Position numbers and translations under genes: made by a program
Shown: positions 7,760 to 56,700 of the stretch, one piece after another
Layout of the letters: each line of letters starts with the position of its first letter
How positions within the stretch are numbered: the stretch's first letter is position 1
NCBI RefSeq assembly: GCF_009765755.1
Contig: NZ_LMUV01000011.1
Location: 329,964-393,963 of the forward strand
Reading direction: 5' to 3'
Length of the DNA: 64,000 nucleotides
From: Rhodanobacter sp. L36
GTDB lineage: Bacteria; Pseudomonadota; Gammaproteobacteria; Xanthomonadales; Rhodanobacteraceae
The notes under the pieces: model-generated
The model's input: the letters and a program-made list of their open reading frames with translations, nothing else
What the model was told of the DNA's origin: nothing
Databases searched by the model: none

Positions 7760-8194
7760 TCAGTTCACGGCGTAGAACGCGTGTTCGCCGATGGTGACAC
7801 GCGGACGGTTGTGCGACCACGCCGGCGCGACTGCAACCGTCGCGAAATGATCCGCGTGCGGCACCAGCATGCGACGCTGCGCCAGCGGCAACTGCCAGTT
7901 CTGAATCGAACGACCTGCAACCATCCACGCCTTGTGAAATGCATCGAGATTGTTGATGTCGAACGAACCGGATGTGGTGGTGGTCGCGAACTGGTGCGGG
8001 GCCGTTACGACTTTGCAGACGGTGGTTCCCCACTGCCCGCGATCGCGACGACGCATGGCCACTTCTGCAACAGCCATCTGGCCGTTCATCGGTTCACTGC
8101 GTGCTTCGAGATAGACGGTGGTGGCCAGGCAAGCCTGGTCCGCGACGGGTTGTGGCATCAATGACGTCAGCCACAACAGCATGGAAAGTTTCAT
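7760..8194 (-). CDS. SleB-type cell wall hydrolase, short
   Basis: A 144-residue secreted protein with a short hydrophobic N-terminus and the Hydrolase_2 (SleB/CwlJ) fold: CLATTVYLEARSEPMNGQMAVAEVAMRR carries the conserved catalytic-type Glu of this family, followed by VCKVVTAPHQFA and AWMVAGRS. Members cleave peptidoglycan. The ATG at 8194 has a GGAGG box 11 nt upstream, so the upstream 36 in-frame codons are excluded. Outside spore formers these proteins are thought to act in wall remodelling. The gene converges on the terminator at 7719-7741. Confidence 0.82.
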   Translation of the reverse strand: MKLSMLLWLTSLMPQPVADQACLATTVYLEARSEPMNGQMAVAEVAMRRRDRGQWGTTVCKVVTAPHQFATTTTSGSFDINNLDAFHKAWMVAGRSIQNWQLPLAQRRMLVPHADHFATVAVAPAWSHNRPRVTIGEHAFYAVN

Positions 8195-8649
8195 TTTTGT
8201 TTCTGCCTCCAACGTGCTGTACGCGCAAAGCAGAGTGCAGCTTTGTGCGCCATTGCGGTGGACGGGCGGGCAGGCCGTTCCACCTGGATCAATCGCCGCC
8301 ACCGAAACGTGTGGTCGGGCGCTTTGCCACGGGATTGTGGCGGTCGACCGGCGATGTCATTGCCGATCGGGGGATTGATGTTGCATAGGTGTCGCACCTG
8401 CCGCGTCGACGGTGCTTCTAAGCAACTGCTCCGCACTCTTACTGTGAGGCGGCGTGCCATCCGGTTTGTTCCCCGGGTCGCGCCGATTCGGATTCATCCG
8501 ATTCGTCGCGTCAATCGACACCCCGTATTCCGGATGTCGCGATATTCGATCGGCGGAGCCTAGTGGTCGCTTTCCACTATGACAAGTGCCAGGGGTCGAG
8601 AGTTCATCCCTCGCTCACATTTCAATTCATGAAAACGGGATGACGTGTT
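8195..8649. other. Intergenic stretch without a recognised gene
   Basis: About 455 bp between the wall hydrolase and ygfZ, both on the minus strand. It must hold the hydrolase promoter. I see no convincing gene, RNA or repeat; a 106-codon open frame on plus has no family features and no good start. Confidence 0.6.
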
Positions 8650-9453
8650 TCACGCAGGCCATGATGCGCGCAGTTGCATCACGACTTTGTTGTCGAACGA
8701 AGTCAGTTGATTGTCCGCATGTTGCGTGACGAATTCGTCGTTCAACACCACGAGCGCTTGCACCTCGTCATTCGATGTCACCACATCGAGTACATGTCCG
8801 ACGTCGCGTTCATCCACGCGCAACACTTCACCATTGGTGATCGGCTGCGACAATACGACGCTGTGCATATGTCGTTTGTGCCCGCCGCGAAAATGCATGC
8901 GTGCGACGATTTCCTGACCGGGATAACAACCTTTGTCGATCACCACGGCGCGCAGTCGCTGCAACGACAATGCCGATGGAAGCACTTCGTTCAACGCTGA
9001 TTTGGGCAGCCACGCCCAGCCGTCGCGCCACTGTTTTGTTCGCCACTCGCCATCGCCGTTGCTGGCGGAATCGATGAGCAGACTGTGATCGCCGCAGCCA
9101 AGTGCGACGACGTCATTTTCGTTGCGCGTCGCATGCATCGTCATCGCATCGCCGGTGCTCAGTGTGCGAACGGGATGCGCAGTCAAAATCACCTTCGATC
9201 GAAACACGAAACGCCGCAACGCATTGACCATCGACATTGCGCTGCCGCCGCGCAACAGAAGAAGCAACGCGTTGTCGGACATTCTGATGAGATGAAACAG
9301 TGCAAGCACTCGACCTTGCGAATTGAGCCACGCACTGAACTCCCATTCGTCGGCGGCGAGCGATTTGACGTTGCTGCTGAACTGCGCGTGCGCGAAGGCG
9401 ACCGCGTCGGGTCCTTCGATCGTCAGTGTTTCAGCGGGATGGGAATCGATCAT
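8650..9453 (-). CDS. ygfZ: YgfZ/GcvT-domain folate-binding protein
   Basis: A 267-residue tetrahydrofolate-dependent protein supporting repair and maturation of some Fe-S enzymes. The diagnostic signature KGCYPGQEIVARMHFRGG, including the conserved Cys, lies near residue 195. The N-terminal part (AFAHAQFSSNVKSL, WLNSQGRVLALF) follows the GcvT-like fold. I use the start MIDSHPAE at 9453. It is divergent from the succinate dehydrogenase operon, whose SdhB is an Fe-S protein, a plausible but unproven functional link. Confidence 0.92.
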   Translation of the reverse strand: MIDSHPAETLTIEGPDAVAFAHAQFSSNVKSLAADEWEFSAWLNSQGRVLALFHLIRMSDNALLLLLRGGSAMSMVNALRRFVFRSKVILTAHPVRTLSTGDAMTMHATRNENDVVALGCGDHSLLIDSASNGDGEWRTKQWRDGWAWLPKSALNEVLPSALSLQRLRAVVIDKGCYPGQEIVARMHFRGGHKRHMHSVVLSQPITNGEVLRVDERDVGHVLDVVTSNDEVQALVVLNDEFVTQHADNQLTSFDNKVVMQLRASWPA

Positions 9454-9582
9454 TGAACGACAAGGGTGGGGGCGAGCCAATGCCGCCGCAAGTCTTGTGC
9501 GCCTTTTGATGCGCTTTGATCGCAAGTTGTCGAGGTTGTGCTGCTTTGCCGCAGGTATTAACCTTTGCCGGCTTACAAAACC

Positions 9583-9750
9583 ATGTCCGATACCACTTCC
9601 CCAACCAAGTCTCAGCCTGTTTCCGTTCCGACGGAGCCGGCAGCCGTGCCCGCCGGGCCGGTCACGGACAAAGTGTCGACGGAGCGACCGGCTTTGGATC
9701 CCACGCGTTATGGCGACTGGGAAAAGAACGGGCGCTGCATCGACTTCTGA
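9583..9750 (+). CDS. SdhAF4-like complex II assembly factor (DUF1674)
   Basis: A 55-residue protein whose C-terminus DPTRYGDWEKNGRCIDF is the hallmark of DUF1674, the bacterial relatives of eukaryotic SDHAF4/Sdh8. In eukaryotes that factor binds flavinylated SdhA before it joins SdhB. The N-terminal half is a Pro/Thr/Val-rich disordered stretch. It sits 81 bp upstream of sdhC on the same strand, so it is probably the first gene of the sdh operon. The family match is confident; the assembly role is inferred from eukaryotic work and the context. Confidence 0.82.
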   Translation: MSDTTSPTKSQPVSVPTEPAAVPAGPVTDKVSTERPALDPTRYGDWEKNGRCIDF

Positions 9751-9831
9751 ATGATGCCGACGCTTGTCGTCGGCGATGTTCGGAAGCGGAGTGTGGTGCG
9801 GACATCAGCGATTCCACACAGGATAGCCACC

Positions 9832-10227
9832 ATGGCAGACACGCGACGACCGCTCTCTCCGCATCTACAGGTCTACCGCTGGCAAGTGCAGATGGTGAGT
9901 TCCATCCTGCATCGCGCCACCGGCATCGCGTTGGCGATCGGCAGCTTGCTGGTGGTGTGGGGTTTGCTGGCACTGGCCGGCGGTGAAGAAGGCTTCGCTC
10001 AATACAGAACCATTGTGGGCAGTCCGATCGGCATCGTGTTGCTGATCGGCTGGAGCTGGGCGCTGTTCTATCACCTGTGCAACGGCATTCGCCACCTGGT
10101 CCAGGATGCCGGCGCGGGTTATGCGATCAACCAGTTCATTCGTTCCAGCTGGCTGTCGGTCGCGGTCAGCGTCGTGTTGACGGCACTGGTCTGGATCTAC
10201 GTGTTCAAGACCGGAGGTGCGGCATGA
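9832..10227 (+). CDS. sdhC: Succinate dehydrogenase cytochrome b556 subunit
   Basis: A 131-residue membrane anchor of complex II with three TM helices. Family motifs are RPLSPHLQVYRWQ at the N-terminus, SSILHRATGIAL in TM1 (quinone-site Ser/Arg region) and FYHLCNGIRHLVQDAG in TM2, which carries the haem-ligand-type His. I choose the ATG at 9832 (MADTRRPLSP) because similarity begins there; 27 upstream codons are open. The stop overlaps sdhD by ATGA. Confidence 0.95.
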   Translation: MADTRRPLSPHLQVYRWQVQMVSSILHRATGIALAIGSLLVVWGLLALAGGEEGFAQYRTIVGSPIGIVLLIGWSWALFYHLCNGIRHLVQDAGAGYAINQFIRSSWLSVAVSVVLTALVWIYVFKTGGAA

Positions 10228-50244: not shown

Positions 50245-50340
50245 GCCTGCGGTCGATCCGAGCCGCTGCGGCAAGCGTCCGGCGTCCGTTTTTTGCCTCG
50301 CCTATACTCGATCGTCTGTCCCGTCCAAGAGCCTCGACGC

Positions 50341-52011
<1,671 letters not shown>

Positions 52012-52118
52012 GGATGCTTCGATAGCACACTTGAGCGTGCACTACCTCAATCGAGGTTTTGGAAGAGTAGAGTCATCTTCAAAAACCACATGTGCGAGAC
52101 AGTGAGGGTAAGAACAAA

Positions 52119-53078
52119 ATGGATGCTGAGTTCCACTATCCGCCGGATGTCTTCGATTTACTAATTGAGACCATTTCGCGCTTAAGTCGGGGCAAAAAAG
52201 GTGTCGTTCTGTTTCTTCAAGGCGCTGGAGTTGCGCATGACGACCTTGCTGAGGTCAACGAAATCGTTCGTACTAACCCCAAGTCTATTACTAAGTTTGA
52301 AATCGTACGTAAGGTACTTACGAAGGTAAATGCGCGTGGAGACAGTGGCCTTCGCCCGCGCCGCGAGATCATAAAGCGCGTCACTGAATTTGAAAGTTTT
52401 GATACCTGTTGGCCAGAGGATCGGCTCGAAGCGAAAGGACTCGTGGCCAGTGTTCGTGAAGCGGTAAATGCCAAAGACTCGTTCACGAGGATGAAGCGAG
52501 AGCGCGATGTGGAGCGCGAGCAAGTGCTTTCTCGTCAACGGCGTGAGCAGGTGGCTGCTGCCCTTAAACGAGCAAACATCGAAGACGTAAGCAGGCGGCT
52601 ATTCGCCTTGTTTTCAATGGACAAAGAACCTCAAGAGCGGGGTAGGCTGCTCGAAGCCGTGCTAAACGACCTCTTCAAAGTCTATGGCATCCTTGTTCGT
52701 GAGGATTTTCGCAGGAGGGAGCCGGATAGTGGCGTAGTTCTTGAACAGATTGATGGTGTAATTGAACTCGACGGCACGATTCATCTTGTTGAAATGAAGT
52801 GGCTAAATTCACCTGTAGGAATGGGGGAGTTTTCACCGCATCTCAGTCGACTATTTATGCGTGCTAACGCACACGGAATTTTCATTGCCACAAATGGATA
52901 CACGCAGCCGGTCATCACCGAATGCGCGAACGCGCTAAGTCTTAAGACTATGTTTCTGTGTTCGTTGCAAGAGTTTGTGTTGCTGCTTCAGCGACAGGGT
53001 GATCTTGTGGAATTTCTCAAGGAAAAGTCTCGCGCCGCCATTGTTGATAAGAAGCCATACTTGGAAATTCTCGGCTAA
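52119..53078 (+). CDS. Mrr-like restriction endonuclease
   Basis: A 319-residue protein. The C-terminal half (about 170-300) has the PD-(D/E)xK nuclease pattern of the Mrr_cat type: GRLLEAVLNDLFKVYGI, an Asp in LEQIDGVIELDG and the Glu-Met-Lys triplet in IHLVEMKWLNSP (D212, E225, K227), then FIATNGYTQPVI. The N-terminal 100 residues have no recognised domain, and a charged helical linker joins them. Codon use and base composition are AT-richer than the neighbours, suggesting acquisition. Probably a DNA-targeting defence nuclease; no methylase accompanies it, as expected for a type IV-like enzyme. Confidence 0.8.
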   Translation: MDAEFHYPPDVFDLLIETISRLSRGKKGVVLFLQGAGVAHDDLAEVNEIVRTNPKSITKFEIVRKVLTKVNARGDSGLRPRREIIKRVTEFESFDTCWPEDRLEAKGLVASVREAVNAKDSFTRMKRERDVEREQVLSRQRREQVAAALKRANIEDVSRRLFALFSMDKEPQERGRLLEAVLNDLFKVYGILVREDFRRREPDSGVVLEQIDGVIELDGTIHLVEMKWLNSPVGMGEFSPHLSRLFMRANAHGIFIATNGYTQPVITECANALSLKTMFLCSLQEFVLLLQRQGDLVEFLKEKSRAAIVDKKPYLEILG

Positions 53079-53093
53079 CTTGAGGGGACAGAT

Positions 53094-53441
53094 ATGCGCG
53101 GATACCTACCCGTCTTTGCAGCTGTGATCGGACTGGCCGGGTGCGGAGGCAAGGTTCAATCGCCGGGCCCGATTATTGGAGCGGGGACATTGAAGTGCTT
53201 GGAATGGACGCAAGCCCGCTCGACCTACGATTCTTCAAGGGACAGCGCGTTGCTCGTTGGCATGGCGACAAGTTGGCTCACGGGTGATGTTTCCGGCCGC
53301 TCGCAGGGGATGGAGCACGAAGACCTAACCATCGCGACACTACAAAAGCGCCTCGACGCTCAGTGCCAGCGGAGTCCTTCAGTGACGATTGCTGAGGGTG
53401 CTGACTCATTGATTCACGAACTAGACATGGATCGTCAGTAG
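53094..53441 (+). CDS. Small predicted lipoprotein, unknown function
   Basis: A 115-residue protein with signal peptide and lipobox IGLAGC. The mature part has three Cys (including the lipidated one) and no recognised domain. GAGGGGAC lies upstream of the start, and it follows the endonuclease gene by 15 bp, so the two may be co-transcribed although a functional link is not obvious. Confidence 0.65.
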   Translation: MRGYLPVFAAVIGLAGCGGKVQSPGPIIGAGTLKCLEWTQARSTYDSSRDSALLVGMATSWLTGDVSGRSQGMEHEDLTIATLQKRLDAQCQRSPSVTIAEGADSLIHELDMDRQ

Positions 53442-53470
53442 CAACCAGAACGTCTACATCGGAGCTGAAT

Positions 53471-53519
53471 AAAGGTCAGGTTCATTTAATTCGGCTTGAT
53501 AAATGAATCTGACCCCTTT
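53471..53519. repeat. GGTCAG-type inverted repeat
   Basis: A long imperfect inverted repeat between the lipoprotein and radical SAM genes. The left arm (53471-53488) runs AAAGGTCAG..TTCATTTA, the right arm (53500-53519) TAAATGAA..CTGACCCCTTT. They pair over about 17 positions with one G.U and a 2-nt bulge, around an 11-nt loop. The T-run CCTTTG is short, so termination is possible but not sure. The same GGGTCAG core recurs at five other places up to 59.9 kb. Confidence 0.75.
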
Positions 53520-53582
53520 GTTCACTGATCCAACTTCTTCAAAAACTGATGTACGTCGTAGTTGAATCCGCTAAGGATGTCT

Positions 53583-53600
53583 GCGACTCGAATGAGTCGC
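53583..53600. promoter_or_regulatory. Hairpin just before the radical SAM ribosome site
   Basis: A perfect 7-bp stem GCGACTC / GAGTCGC with a GAAT loop, directly followed by TAGGAGCC, the likely Shine-Dalgarno region, and the ATG at 53614. No T-run, so not a terminator. It might influence translation or act as a protein-binding site. Confidence 0.5.
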
Positions 53601-53613
53601 TAGGAGCCCAGCA

Positions 53614-54750
53614 ATGGATAAGCACGTTGCCATCATTGGAACCGCACAGTTGTCACAGGTCAATCCGAGCCTTAAGAACCCTGTCGAATACCGCAAAAGC
53701 GGGCTGAGCCTCAACCATATCATCGGTTGTCCTTTGGATTGCAGCTACTGCGTAAGGCACTTGTTCGGTAATTTCGATCAGCGTAAGCCTCTAGCGTTGA
53801 TGACTGACGAGCAAGCTTTTGAGCAGCTGATCTCACATCGCTACTTCCAGCCTCACATCACACCAATTCAGTTGTTCAATCGGGCAACCGATCCGATGCT
53901 TCCTGAGGTGAAAAATCATACTCATAAGATATTGCGATTGCTGGATCAATCCGGACTGACCAACAACGTCCTCGTCATTACCCGCTGGCGCGTGACGCCA
54001 GAGGACTGCGTGCGATTCAATGCCTTGAGCAATATCAAGCTGACCATATTGGTAACGTACTCGGGCATCGACGACCCTGAGGTCGAGCCGATCAAGTCAT
54101 CAATTGCTGCCAGCAGTCTAGGCGTCCTGTTCAAGCATGCGCAGCGGTACAGGACGTTGCTTTATTGGCGACCTATCGTTCCAGGACTCAATGACTCGGT
54201 GCAGCACATTGATCGGGCGGCGCAATTAGCGAGACACGCTCACGCGACGGTTTTTAGCGGATTGTTCTATCGTAAAGAGATTGCGCAGTATTACCAAAGC
54301 CAGGGTATTCCCGAACCCTATAGCTCGACCGCGAGGCGCAAGCTTCTGCCGCTGGAGGACGAAAAGCGGTTGATCAGGATTTACCAAACGCACACCTCGA
54401 GCGCTCCCATCTTTCGCAAGACATCCTGTGGTGTGGCCTATGCTCACCAACAACCCGATTACAATGGTCATTTCGGCATCACGGAAATCTGTGACATTTG
54501 CCCGTCCACGCAGTTCTCGACGTGCAAAGCCGCTTGGAAAAAACCTGATGACGCGCTTCTTAGCAGCTTGTGCAAGAGCCTAGGAGTCCAGGGTGAGCCC
54601 GTGATTACAGATCGTTCCATCGTTGTTCGCGGCCTGGATGAACAGCGGCGATATTTCCTACAGCACACGCTTGGATATCAAGTACATGATATCGACAAGC
54701 CGCATCACTATGAGCGCCATGGCCGCTCGGAAGCTGAGAGGAATACCTGA
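53614..54750 (+). CDS. Radical SAM enzyme with C-terminal Cys cluster
   Basis: A 378-residue radical SAM protein. The CxxxCxxC motif for the SAM-binding 4Fe-4S cluster is C39-C43-C46 in IGCPLDCSYCVRH. The core shows IQLFNRATDPMLPEV and VLVITRWRVTPED, reminiscent of the spore-photoproduct-lyase-like branch, though I cannot assign a subfamily. Four further Cys (C272, C293, C296, C304, in TSCG and EICDICPSTQFSTC) may bind an auxiliary cluster. The stop overlaps the next start by one base (TGATG). First gene of a three-gene operon; AGGAG is 8 nt upstream. The substrate is unknown; nucleic acid or a nucleotide is a guess from the neighbours. Confidence 0.85.
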   Translation: MDKHVAIIGTAQLSQVNPSLKNPVEYRKSGLSLNHIIGCPLDCSYCVRHLFGNFDQRKPLALMTDEQAFEQLISHRYFQPHITPIQLFNRATDPMLPEVKNHTHKILRLLDQSGLTNNVLVITRWRVTPEDCVRFNALSNIKLTILVTYSGIDDPEVEPIKSSIAASSLGVLFKHAQRYRTLLYWRPIVPGLNDSVQHIDRAAQLARHAHATVFSGLFYRKEIAQYYQSQGIPEPYSSTARRKLLPLEDEKRLIRIYQTHTSSAPIFRKTSCGVAYAHQQPDYNGHFGITEICDICPSTQFSTCKAAWKKPDDALLSSLCKSLGVQGEPVITDRSIVVRGLDEQRRYFLQHTLGYQVHDIDKPHHYERHGRSEAERNT

Positions 54751-55364
54751 TGATGGAAATGAAGTTTCAGTGGCCATCCGAGCCCATCGTAATCGTCGAC
54801 GTCGAAGGCAATGGCCATTCTCCGCCTGATCTTGTGGAACTTGCCATTTCCTCATTTCCAATTGTCGAGGGCATTGGTCCATCGAGTTGGCTCATCAAGC
54901 CTCCCAACCCGATTACCTGGCAAGCGAAACAAGTGCATGGCATCGGTAATTCGGATATAAAAAGCTCCCCTACTTGGAATGAGATAGAAGGCGATGTAGA
55001 ACGGCGTTTACGAGGTAAATGGTTTGTCGCCCACAACGCCTCCGTGGACTATGGCGTGATCAAACGCCATCTACCGGAATGGGTTCCCATCGGCGTGATA
55101 GACACATTGAAGCTTGCTCGTCATGTTTATCCAAATGCTCAGAGCCATGGCCTCTCGGCACTGCTGGCTTTGACTGGCTTGGAAACAGAGGTGTCAGGTG
55201 AGCTGCACCGTGCCGGTGAGGATTCTCGGGTGACGGCACTCCTCCTAGGCCGCCTGATCACAGACTCGCTTTGCAAGAGCTGGATCGAGATATGCAAGAT
55301 CGCCCAGCTCAAAACGCAAATACAAAAAAAGCCAGTTGCGCCGGATCAAGGGGACCTATGGTGA
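54750..55364 (+). CDS. DEDDh-family 3'-5' exonuclease
   Basis: A 204-residue exonuclease of the DnaQ-like superfamily. The acidic residues are in place: D17 and E19 in IVIVDVEGNG, D100 in FVAHNASVDYGVIK, and H153/D158 in ELHRAGEDSRVTALLL, the Exo III motif of the DEDDh type. There is no polymerase or helicase partner domain. It is translationally coupled on both sides: it starts at the last base of the radical SAM stop and overlaps the next gene by 7 bp. The substrate (DNA, RNA or dinucleotides) is not evident. Confidence 0.88.
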   Translation: MMEMKFQWPSEPIVIVDVEGNGHSPPDLVELAISSFPIVEGIGPSSWLIKPPNPITWQAKQVHGIGNSDIKSSPTWNEIEGDVERRLRGKWFVAHNASVDYGVIKRHLPEWVPIGVIDTLKLARHVYPNAQSHGLSALLALTGLETEVSGELHRAGEDSRVTALLLGRLITDSLCKSWIEICKIAQLKTQIQKKPVAPDQGDLW

Positions 55365-55927
55365 GCGCCATTGTTATCGGTGTGGCCGGCACTCATTCGA
55401 CCGGCAAGTCCACGTTCTGTCGTGACCTGAAAGCTTGCATTGAGTTGAAGGGTATTCGCGTGGTGACCATTCCGTCCTTCGGCGCGCGCGCGGTTCTGGA
55501 AAAAATTCCAGTGTTAACCCACCATACCTACGATTCCACGATGTGGTTTATTGAAAGAACGCTTGAAGCGGAACAAGCAGCTCGCGCCAATGCTGAGGTC
55601 GTGCTTGTCGATCGTCCTGTCATCGATGCGGTGGCTTACTGGAACGCGGCCCTTGCGTATCGAGGCGCCAGCGCCGTTGCGTGTGAGGCGAAAGCGGTAA
55701 ACGAGCTCATGCTCAACCACTGCTCAAACTGCGCGACTGTTATTGCTACAAAGCTTGATACGTCCGTCGTTCTTGGCCCTGGGCGAGACATTGACGCCGT
55801 CTTCAGGGAATTGGTGGACTCGCACTTGCACGAGCTTCTCGGCCGCTATTCGATTCATCACCGGGTGCTTGCTCCAGCGGTGCGAGAAGTGCTTCTCGGA
55901 GAGCTCACCGCTGAGCTATCGAGTTAA
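55358..55927 (+). CDS. Small P-loop ATPase/kinase-like protein
   Basis: A 189-residue protein with an N-terminal Walker A motif GTHSTGKST (residues 11-19) and the segment VVLVDRPVIDAVAYWN, where the Asp-Arg pair recalls the DR motif of nucleoside/NadR-type kinases (AAA_28-like group). The small size argues against an oligomeric AAA+ remodeller. The ATG at 55358 is preceded by AAGGGGACC and overlaps the exonuclease stop; an upstream in-frame ATG at 55271 lies deep within that gene. It is the last gene of the radical SAM operon. Possible role: phosphorylation of a nucleoside made or modified by the first enzyme. Confidence 0.78.
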   Translation: MVSAIVIGVAGTHSTGKSTFCRDLKACIELKGIRVVTIPSFGARAVLEKIPVLTHHTYDSTMWFIERTLEAEQAARANAEVVLVDRPVIDAVAYWNAALAYRGASAVACEAKAVNELMLNHCSNCATVIATKLDTSVVLGPGRDIDAVFRELVDSHLHELLGRYSIHHRVLAPAVREVLLGELTAELSS

Positions 55928-56361
55928 TTCAATCGTCCCGGGTTCCGCGAAAAAGGGGACGGAGGCTGAGGTTTCCCCACGAATCTCCTCGCTCAATCAA
56001 AACGTTGCGTGCGTTCTGAAGGAACAGTGCGCGCATGATGCGGTCATTCCTCACGGGTTACGAAGCCAGAGGAGACCACACCATGCGCGTGACCAAAGTA
56101 TTGCAAAAACGAAATAGGGGTCAGAGTGCGCTTTTCAGTCGGTCGGCATTTTGCGGGGTCGCCCGATCCTGAGTGGTCCGACCGAGCGCGCCAGCTGGGC
56201 TTCGATGTCGGAACGAAAGCGATCTGAGCCAAGCGCATGTTGGCGTTGAAAAACAGGGTCAGTGCGCCTTTCACTCGTTCGAAAGTTGTAGGGGCCGCCC
56301 GAACAGGTTTGCCGCGCCCATACTGACGCCGCATTGAAGATCGCAACTCGGGGGGTGATCC
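55928..56361. other. Intergenic repeat remnants, no gene recognised
   Basis: About 434 bp between the kinase-like gene and the 2-TM gene. It contains a phrase AAAAAGGGGACGGAGGCTGA (from about 55949) and two related GGGTCAG units at 56116 and 56255. I see no convincing coding region; a short frame ending at the first unit (RVTKVLQKRN) could be a remnant of a lost gene. The composition returns to higher GC across this stretch. Confidence 0.6.
56116..56311. repeat. Two diverged direct repeats with GGGTCAG heads
   Basis: Unit A (56116-56175) and unit B (56255-56311) align along their length: a GGGTCAG head, GTGCGC, a CTTTTCA or CTTTCA tract, a TCG-rich part, then GGGG(T/C)CGCCCGA. They are offset by about 139 bp and have diverged, with small gaps. 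They look like the ends of a decayed mobile repeat. Confidence 0.6.
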
Positions 56362-56700
56362 ATGAGCCGACTCCTCAACGAGGTCGATGCGGCCATTGCC
56401 CGCATGCCTTGGAGTGAAGACGAGAAATCGCAGGTGCGCAGGCGCGCACGACGGTATGACCACGCATGCGGCTGCGGCTTCGGTGGTGCGTTTCTTGTGC
56501 TTGCGATCCTGGCCTGCTTGGCCCGCCTCGTTTTGGCCGATCCTTTCTCCTGGAGCCTGATCCCCCTTGGTGTGATCGGCGTTTTCTGCGCCGGGCTCGC
56601 GGGCAAGGCGATCGGAGTCGGCTGGGCGAAGGTGAGGCTGCTGTTCCTGCACCGTTCGCTGATTCGCCTCATGCCGGCATCAAGGGGAGTGCTTCCATGA
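56362..56700 (+). CDS. Small two-helix membrane protein, unknown
   Basis: A 112-residue protein with an acidic-basic N-terminus (MSRLLNEVDAAIARMPWSEDEK), a Cys pair (ACGCG) and two TM helices (GGAFLVLAILACLARLVL and LIPLGVIGVFCAGLAGKAIG), then a basic tail. GGGGGGTGA lies upstream of the ATG. The stop overlaps the phosphoesterase start (ATGA), so the two proteins are made together; it may serve as membrane partner or immunity-like factor. No family recognised. Confidence 0.72.
   Translation: MSRLLNEVDAAIARMPWSEDEKSQVRRRARRYDHACGCGFGGAFLVLAILACLARLVLADPFSWSLIPLGVIGVFCAGLAGKAIGVGWAKVRLLFLHRSLIRLMPASRGVLP

Follow-up and report, generated by a model that had tools for sequence, protein, structure and literature searches.

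The stretch analyzed here, referred to below as the window, is a 64,000-nucleotide piece of the Rhodanobacter sp. L36 genome (contig NZ_LMUV01000011.1). Its plus strand carries three overlapping genes, called the trio in what follows. The first (53614..54750) encodes a radical S-adenosylmethionine (rSAM) enzyme of 378 aa, predicted to consist of a barrel like that of spore photoproduct lyase (SPL) and a C-terminal extension. The second (54750..55364) encodes a DEDDh 3'-5' exonuclease of 204 aa, and the third (55358..55927) a P-loop nucleoside/nucleotide kinase of 189 aa, counted from the ATG at 55358; the longer kinase reading frame in the program-made list begins at a TTG at 55271. The rSAM and exonuclease genes overlap by 1 bp and the exonuclease and kinase genes by 7 bp. 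The GC contents of the three genes are 52.1%, 52.2% and 55.8%, respectively, and that of the window is 61.8%. The first-pass annotation of this DNA had described three same-strand genes with these overlaps, a lower GC content than the surroundings, and intact motifs (C39/C43/C46 in the rSAM, D17/E19/D100/H153/D158 in the exonuclease and GTHSTGKST in the kinase); the coordinates, base composition (52-56% for the trio) and residues agree with that description. A promoter scan found none, which is below the number found in shuffled sequences.

The three encoded enzymes

The rSAM was placed in the radical SAM superfamily by the combination of its CxxxCxxC motif (codons at 53728..53751, plus strand) and its predicted barrel fold. 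In an alignment of 37 rows, the window protein included, a cysteine occupies the position of C39 in 36 rows and those of C43 and C46 in all 37, and in a smaller alignment (15 rSAMs, again with the window protein) all three are invariant. Four further cysteines, C272, C293, C296 and C304 (54427..54525, plus strand), are conserved in 37, 35, 37 and 37 rows of the larger alignment, and may form an auxiliary Fe-S site. The Radical_SAM Pfam model matched the protein at E 0.024, below its cut-off, and the NCBIfam matches (E up to 0.1) were confined to weak ones with NF033719 and NF040899, with no viperin family model among them. PADLOC-DB 2.0.0 held no model that matched the rSAM or the kinase. A profile search of the PDB at E 1 returned no relative of the rSAM, and SPL was matched by sequence profile in neither the NCBIfam search (E 0.1) nor the PDB search (E 1).

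The fold predicted for the rSAM is nearest to that of SPL, with 12-13% identity in the structural alignment; these alignments exclude rSAM residues beyond about 270, and with them the four extra cysteines. An alternative that follows the SPL likeness is that the rSAM acts on nucleic acid, the set marking or repairing a base in DNA or RNA, with the exonuclease degrading or resecting ends and the nucleotide set free being recycled or phosphorylated by the kinase. However, the PFL activating enzyme ties with SPL in structural Z (17.1), and the substrate therefore cannot be read from the fold. The kinase, being of the nucleotide type, also argues against action on nucleic acid.

All five catalytic residues of a DEDDh exonuclease (D-E-D-H-D) are present in the window exonuclease, which matched RNase_T at E 3.2e-12. 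Across 26 aligned exonucleases, D17, E19, H153 and D158 are invariant and D100 is replaced by glutamate in eight. The closest PDB entries to the family profile were the PolC exonuclease domain and ExoX (E about 1e-24). In PADLOC the exonuclease matched only DEDDh and PDC-S48, and the trio proteins did not correspond as a system to any of the antiphage systems described in PADLOC-DB 2.0.0. The kinase combines a P-loop (GxxxxGKS/T) and a DR motif with a predicted TMPK/NadR/dNK fold, and its residues G16, K17, D85 and R86 are invariant in 15 sequences.

Co-occurrence, distribution and mobility

The co-occurrence of the three genes was followed in 47 fetched loci with an rSAM relative (10 from genome_contigs, 11 from plasmids, 10 from viral_contigs and 16 from an Actinomycetes sample; individual loci are given L numbers). 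The exonuclease adjoins the rSAM in 44 of the 47 and the kinase in 30. The kinase was kept in 10/10 genome_contigs, 11/11 plasmid, 7/10 viral_contigs and 2/16 Actinomycetes loci; the rSAM and exonuclease therefore form the tightest core. Not all 47 loci are independent, because L070 is the L007 genome, L015 and L016 are near-identical, and L060 and L061 are two copies from one genome. L073, which has the exonuclease and a partial kinase, was left out of the 47 for want of an rSAM match. The rSAM-positive loci that lack the exonuclease are a Nostoc plasmid with rSAM and kinase (L076) and two loci with distant rSAMs (L029 and L071). Rare co-occurrence in other genomes had been named beforehand as the outcome that would count against a joint system, and the opposite was seen.

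The same three-gene order was found in all ten genome_contigs loci, which come from Pseudomonas, Halopseudomonas, Pantoea and Nocardia and whose rSAMs are 58-85% identical to that of the window (a single scan). As the order is kept in 10/10 of these relatives, the gene set is beyond chance. The overlaps recur as well, at 1 and 7 bp in L001 and L002 and at 4 and 7 bp in L003 and L004. Among plasmid records, 33 matched the kinase and 27 of these also matched the rSAM, as judged by reading the two lists side by side; in four of the 27 the rSAM is only a distant one, about 25% identical. Broken copies also occur, such as L010 and L019 with a split rSAM frame, and in Actinomycetes several of the matches are only partial.

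The rSAM was found in 39 plasmid records, 23 of which are predicted to be conjugative or mobilizable. In one viral contig (L025) about 3 kb separates the cassette from a terminase gene, and a phage-type integrase fragment lies upstream of the cassette in L005; none of 50,697 phage records matched the rSAM at E 1e-5. The trio is a unit and a genuinely mobile cassette.

The rSAM profile matched one of 97 genomes in the host family, at least one of 321 in the class and at least one of 299 in the phylum, in each case the host itself. In Actinomycetes it matched at least 20 of 394 genomes, the centre genome included; 11 of these matches reach 364 bits or more, one is split in two pieces, and eight are short or distant only. 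The class, phylum and Actinomycetes counts are lower bounds, at most four to six candidates having been scored per genome. The kinase profile matched one of 247 Enterobacterales genomes, which was the Pantoea genome serving as centre. Overall, the trio family was found in Pseudomonadota and Actinomycetota, and with the rSAM and kinase of the Nostoc plasmid it extends to at least three phyla. In the rSAM tree the window protein groups with the Pseudomonas and Halopseudomonas copies (support 100/98), even though the other 96 genomes sampled from the host family lack it.

Genomic surroundings and possible function

The surroundings of the cassette were examined by running PADLOC on 20 hand-picked neighbours from ten loci (L001-L004, L016-L018, L026, L079 and L080; L026 comes from a viral contig with no stated host, and L005, L014 and L025 were left out of this run). 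Matches were obtained for 17 of the 20 proteins, in nine of the ten loci (E 1e-4 in a first run and 1e-10 in a second). They comprise SIR2 and HerA upstream of the cassette in L001; PDC-S65, which is SIR2-like, downstream in L002, its L001 counterpart being recognised solely by a similar start; TRIP13 and the CD-NTase cyclase of CBASS in L003; the phospholipase, cyclase and E1-E2 proteins of CBASS in L080; a dGTPase, ThsB and PDC-S57 in L017; and LmuA with a type-IV-like helicase in L079. CBASS, SIR2-HerA, Lamassu-type or Thoeris-type genes thus occur close to several proteobacterial copies, a setting that is suggestive and, because there was no random-locus control, unquantified. A role of the trio in defence is probable.

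Accessory genes of the nucleotide-enzyme kind accompany the cassette elsewhere. Of 40 clustered loci, 15 carry an aldo/keto reductase and 12 a gene of thymidylate-synthase fold; greedy gene picking left spurious antisense reading frames in high-GC loci (e.g., c10, c11 and c14), which were disregarded by eye. The L021 copy of the thymidylate-synthase-fold protein matched the mildiomycin-type CMP 5-hydroxymethylase (5jnh) at E 3.1e-80 and thymidylate synthase at 1.2e-11. Relatives of this hydroxymethylase (MilA; PDB 5jnh/5b6d) accompany some actinobacterial versions of the cassette; neither the window nor the named proteobacterial loci that were clustered have one. NDK adjoins the cassette in two Streptomyces plasmids and at least one viral contig, and in Labrenzia, Rhizobium and Sinorhizobium (L016, L079 and L080) the next gene after the trio encodes an HD-domain protein, that of Sinorhizobium (L080) having weak similarity to dGTPase.

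The actinobacterial hydroxymethylase relative and NDK point to free nucleotides, and a reading in which the rSAM works on nucleic acid is, on this and the preceding evidence, unlikely. That the substrate of the rSAM is a free nucleotide is somewhat favoured. A set of enzymes that all handle nucleotides, with HD and aldo/keto reductase accessories, could also serve ordinary nucleotide salvage or the sanitising of damaged nucleotides, with no link to phage; the patchy spread (1/97 in the family sample) and the mobile, defence-associated context are unlike those of housekeeping genes, and this explanation is very unlikely.

A precedent for a small cassette of related make-up is thmABC of Photorhabdus. 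According to its description, 4'-thiothymidine is the joint product of an rSAM, a kinase and an NTPase and, once in DNA, inhibits replication; the NTPase by itself confers resistance; and trios of this type are reported only in Enterobacterales and Vibrio (PMC12691670). The likeness to the window trio lies in three adjacent genes for an rSAM, a nucleoside kinase and a nucleotide-acting self-resistance function. The third gene of thmABC, in contrast, encodes a nucleoside triphosphatase, where the window trio has a DEDDh exonuclease and no triphosphatase, so that the trio does not have the rSAM, nucleoside kinase and nucleoside triphosphatase composition of the thmABC type. The thmABC kinase is described as a distant AbmG homologue. 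The reported range of thmABC-type trios (Enterobacterales and Vibrio only) also differs from that of the present family, with its at least three phyla (PMC12691670 for the former).

The thmABC precedent raises the alternative that the trio is a minimal cluster for a nucleoside antibiotic released against other bacteria, with the exonuclease as self-resistance and the proximity to defence genes reflecting shared mobile-element traffic. Streptomyces versions with the CMP-hydroxymethylase relative, NDK, an aldo/keto reductase and DUF6415/DUF6302 'natural product' proteins are consistent with this explanation, as is L081, where the exonuclease and kinase have no rSAM and are accompanied by a dioxygenase and a nucleotide sugar dehydrogenase. 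Against it, the proteobacterial copies are often near antiphage genes or within a viral contig. In the six alphaproteobacterial loci L014, L016-L018, L079 and L080, the genes adjoining the trio include no annotated exporter. In two further loci, L074 and L084, the exonuclease and kinase lie beside a distant rSAM and MurA, and short remnants of the close rSAM (43 and 36 bits) are found immediately ahead of the exonuclease frame or where it starts. Both loci probably represent decayed trios with another cluster alongside, which weakens the idea that the exonuclease and kinase were deliberately reused with a distant rSAM. Release of an antibiotic was already considered rather unlikely, and was judged marginally more so because L074 and L084 look like decayed trios. 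A link to nikkomycin or polyoxin was likewise dropped, the L074 enolpyruvyl transferase being MurA-like (E 3.7e-84) and not NikO-like (1.3e-20).

The interpretation preferred here, held tentatively, is that the cassette makes an unusual nucleotide and protects its own cell from the same compound, most likely as an antiphage measure. A substrate and product for the rSAM, a direction of action and an antidote role for the exonuclease can be proposed as follows. The rSAM would take hydrogen from a pyrimidine (deoxy)nucleotide and rebuild its sugar or base, possibly assisted by an auxiliary Fe-S site at C272/C293/C296/C304. The thymidylate-kinase-like kinase would raise the analogue toward the triphosphate together with host NDK or, in some Actinobacteria, with the NDK encoded by the cassette. 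The intense DNA synthesis of a phage would then incorporate the analogue and stall, and the PolC/ExoX-like exonuclease would strip it from the 3' ends of host DNA. The rSAM and kinase would in this way supply a poison and the dedicated exonuclease an antidote that spares the host and not the phage, a core that Actinobacteria, with the CMP-hydroxymethylase relative and NDK, could have turned to the making of nucleotide natural products; this full scheme is a possibility with the balance against it. The self-protective role of the exonuclease, taken by itself, is plausible but falls short of probable. Viperin makes 3'-deoxy-3',4'-didehydro-CMP (ddhCMP). This natural antiviral chain terminator is excised by a 3'-5' exoribonuclease (PMC9415739), which along with thmABC provides the strongest precedent for the preferred interpretation.

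Several observations weigh against this interpretation. The kinase is absent from 17 of the 47 loci, and the Nostoc plasmid (L076) is without the exonuclease, so that neither is universally needed. Lone plasmid exonucleases (L075, L077 and L086) have neither rSAM nor kinase alongside, L081 lacks the rSAM, and L083 has the kinase and an aldo/keto reductase with neither the exonuclease nor an rSAM of the trio type. The PADLOC neighbours were hand-picked and their matches are to individual proteins; those in L016, L018 and L026 are to weaker, generic helicase or methylase families, and L004 had none. The actinobacterial versions, moreover, resemble natural-product clusters. The lone exonucleases group with those of Streptomyces cassettes, and are compatible with either orphan immunity or a general nuclease.

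By the comparisons made here, the systems that appear closest in kind to the trio are the prokaryotic viperins (pVips) and thmABC. The window rSAM differs from pVips in its C-terminal extension, its four extra conserved cysteines and its exonuclease partner. No description of the trio was found in literature searches of open-licence papers, PMC12691670 being the nearest, and the passages of PMC10853773 that were consulted contain none. The earlier suggestion of an undescribed composition is borne out to the extent that neither an account in the open-licence literature nor a matching characterised pathway was found. In kind the trio belongs with radical-SAM-made antiviral or antibiotic nucleotides; its composition is new, and its mechanism is new if the antidote idea holds. 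If correct, the proposal would add a chemically new member to the few antiviral or antibacterial nucleotides made by radical SAM enzymes, would provide a case of a proofreading exonuclease employed as an antidote, and would link viperin-type defence in a natural way to the biosynthesis of nucleoside antibiotics. It would also offer small, clonable cassettes from many bacteria for nucleotide-analogue screening.

Distant rSAMs were seen in other settings. A family about 25% identical to the window rSAM, with a similar cysteine pattern, is present at L074 6953-8104, L078 7049-8188 and L084 5692-6843. The Streptomyces plasmid clusters that contain it have either MurA, aldolase and glycosyltransferase genes or dCTP deaminases and a cytidine deaminase, and are possible nucleotide natural-product clusters. 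The viral contig L029 has two adjacent rSAM-like genes (7986-10015), the second recognised by motif and by eye; the first has a motif in common with the window rSAM (FRKTSCGV...DYN.H...C..CP), and there is no trio-type exonuclease or kinase nearby. In Streptomyces plasmid pFRL3 (L083 7971-16492), the kinase and aldo/keto reductase adjoin a QueD/QueE/FolE deazapurine set that includes another rSAM and a thymidylate kinase.

The site behind hutU and its other genes

The trio lies downstream of the urocanase gene hutU (50293..52011, plus strand), which forms the conserved left edge of a variable site. Among 21 genomes of the genus, the host's own included, 19 have a match to this gene. The alignment with all ten sister loci (L101-L110) ends at window positions 52005-52013, and within 52014-56466 none of these loci gave an alignment that reached 150 bp at E 1e-10. 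Seven proteins from five of the ten sister loci were submitted to PADLOC, and three of the seven, in two of the five loci, were matched: an OLD-family protein in L105 and the candidate pair PDC-M61A/B in L101. In addition, L102 has an HSDR_N_2/HSDR_N-like protein at the Pfam cut-off, L104 a NACHT match below it, and L106 a protein with an MvdD-type pre-ATP-grasp domain (Pfam). As the sister alignments stop here and the cargo differs, hutU is followed on its 3' side by a variable slot whose cargo across these genomes is partly defence-like; in the present genome the trio occupies it.

In L106 the 3' end of hutU occurs a second time (7943-8456) about 2.6 kb downstream, and partial second copies are present in G1353 and, at a contig edge, in G1347, as if elements integrate at the 3' end of hutU in this genus. 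An attachment-site scar of this kind was sought in the host and rejected, there being no second match in its own genome; in the window and 39.8 kb beyond it, only short matches of chance size were found.

Within the same low-GC stretch, a gene at 52092..53078 (plus strand) encodes a protein with a D...ExK motif that, by eye only, suggests a PD-(D/E)XK fold. It matched no Pfam, NCBIfam or PADLOC model at E 0.1, and its only PHROG match was RecE-like (E 0.067). It was considered as a fourth component and dropped, as it had no relative in 18 other loci and is not conserved with the cassette. The first-pass label 'Mrr-like' for this neighbour is not supported by any family match, and the gene lies outside the conserved set. 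The remainder of that inference, a working set and a candidate defence or nucleotide-modification module, is retained in view of the co-occurrence, the neighbours matching defence models and the variable hutU slot. A small lipoprotein-like reading frame with no family match (Pfam, NCBIfam or PADLOC) lies at 53094-53441, between the D...ExK gene and the trio. Also upstream of the trio, at 53473-53519, is a near inverted repeat, AGGTCAGGTTCATTTA...TAAATGAATCTGACCCC, possibly the remnant of a repeat element.

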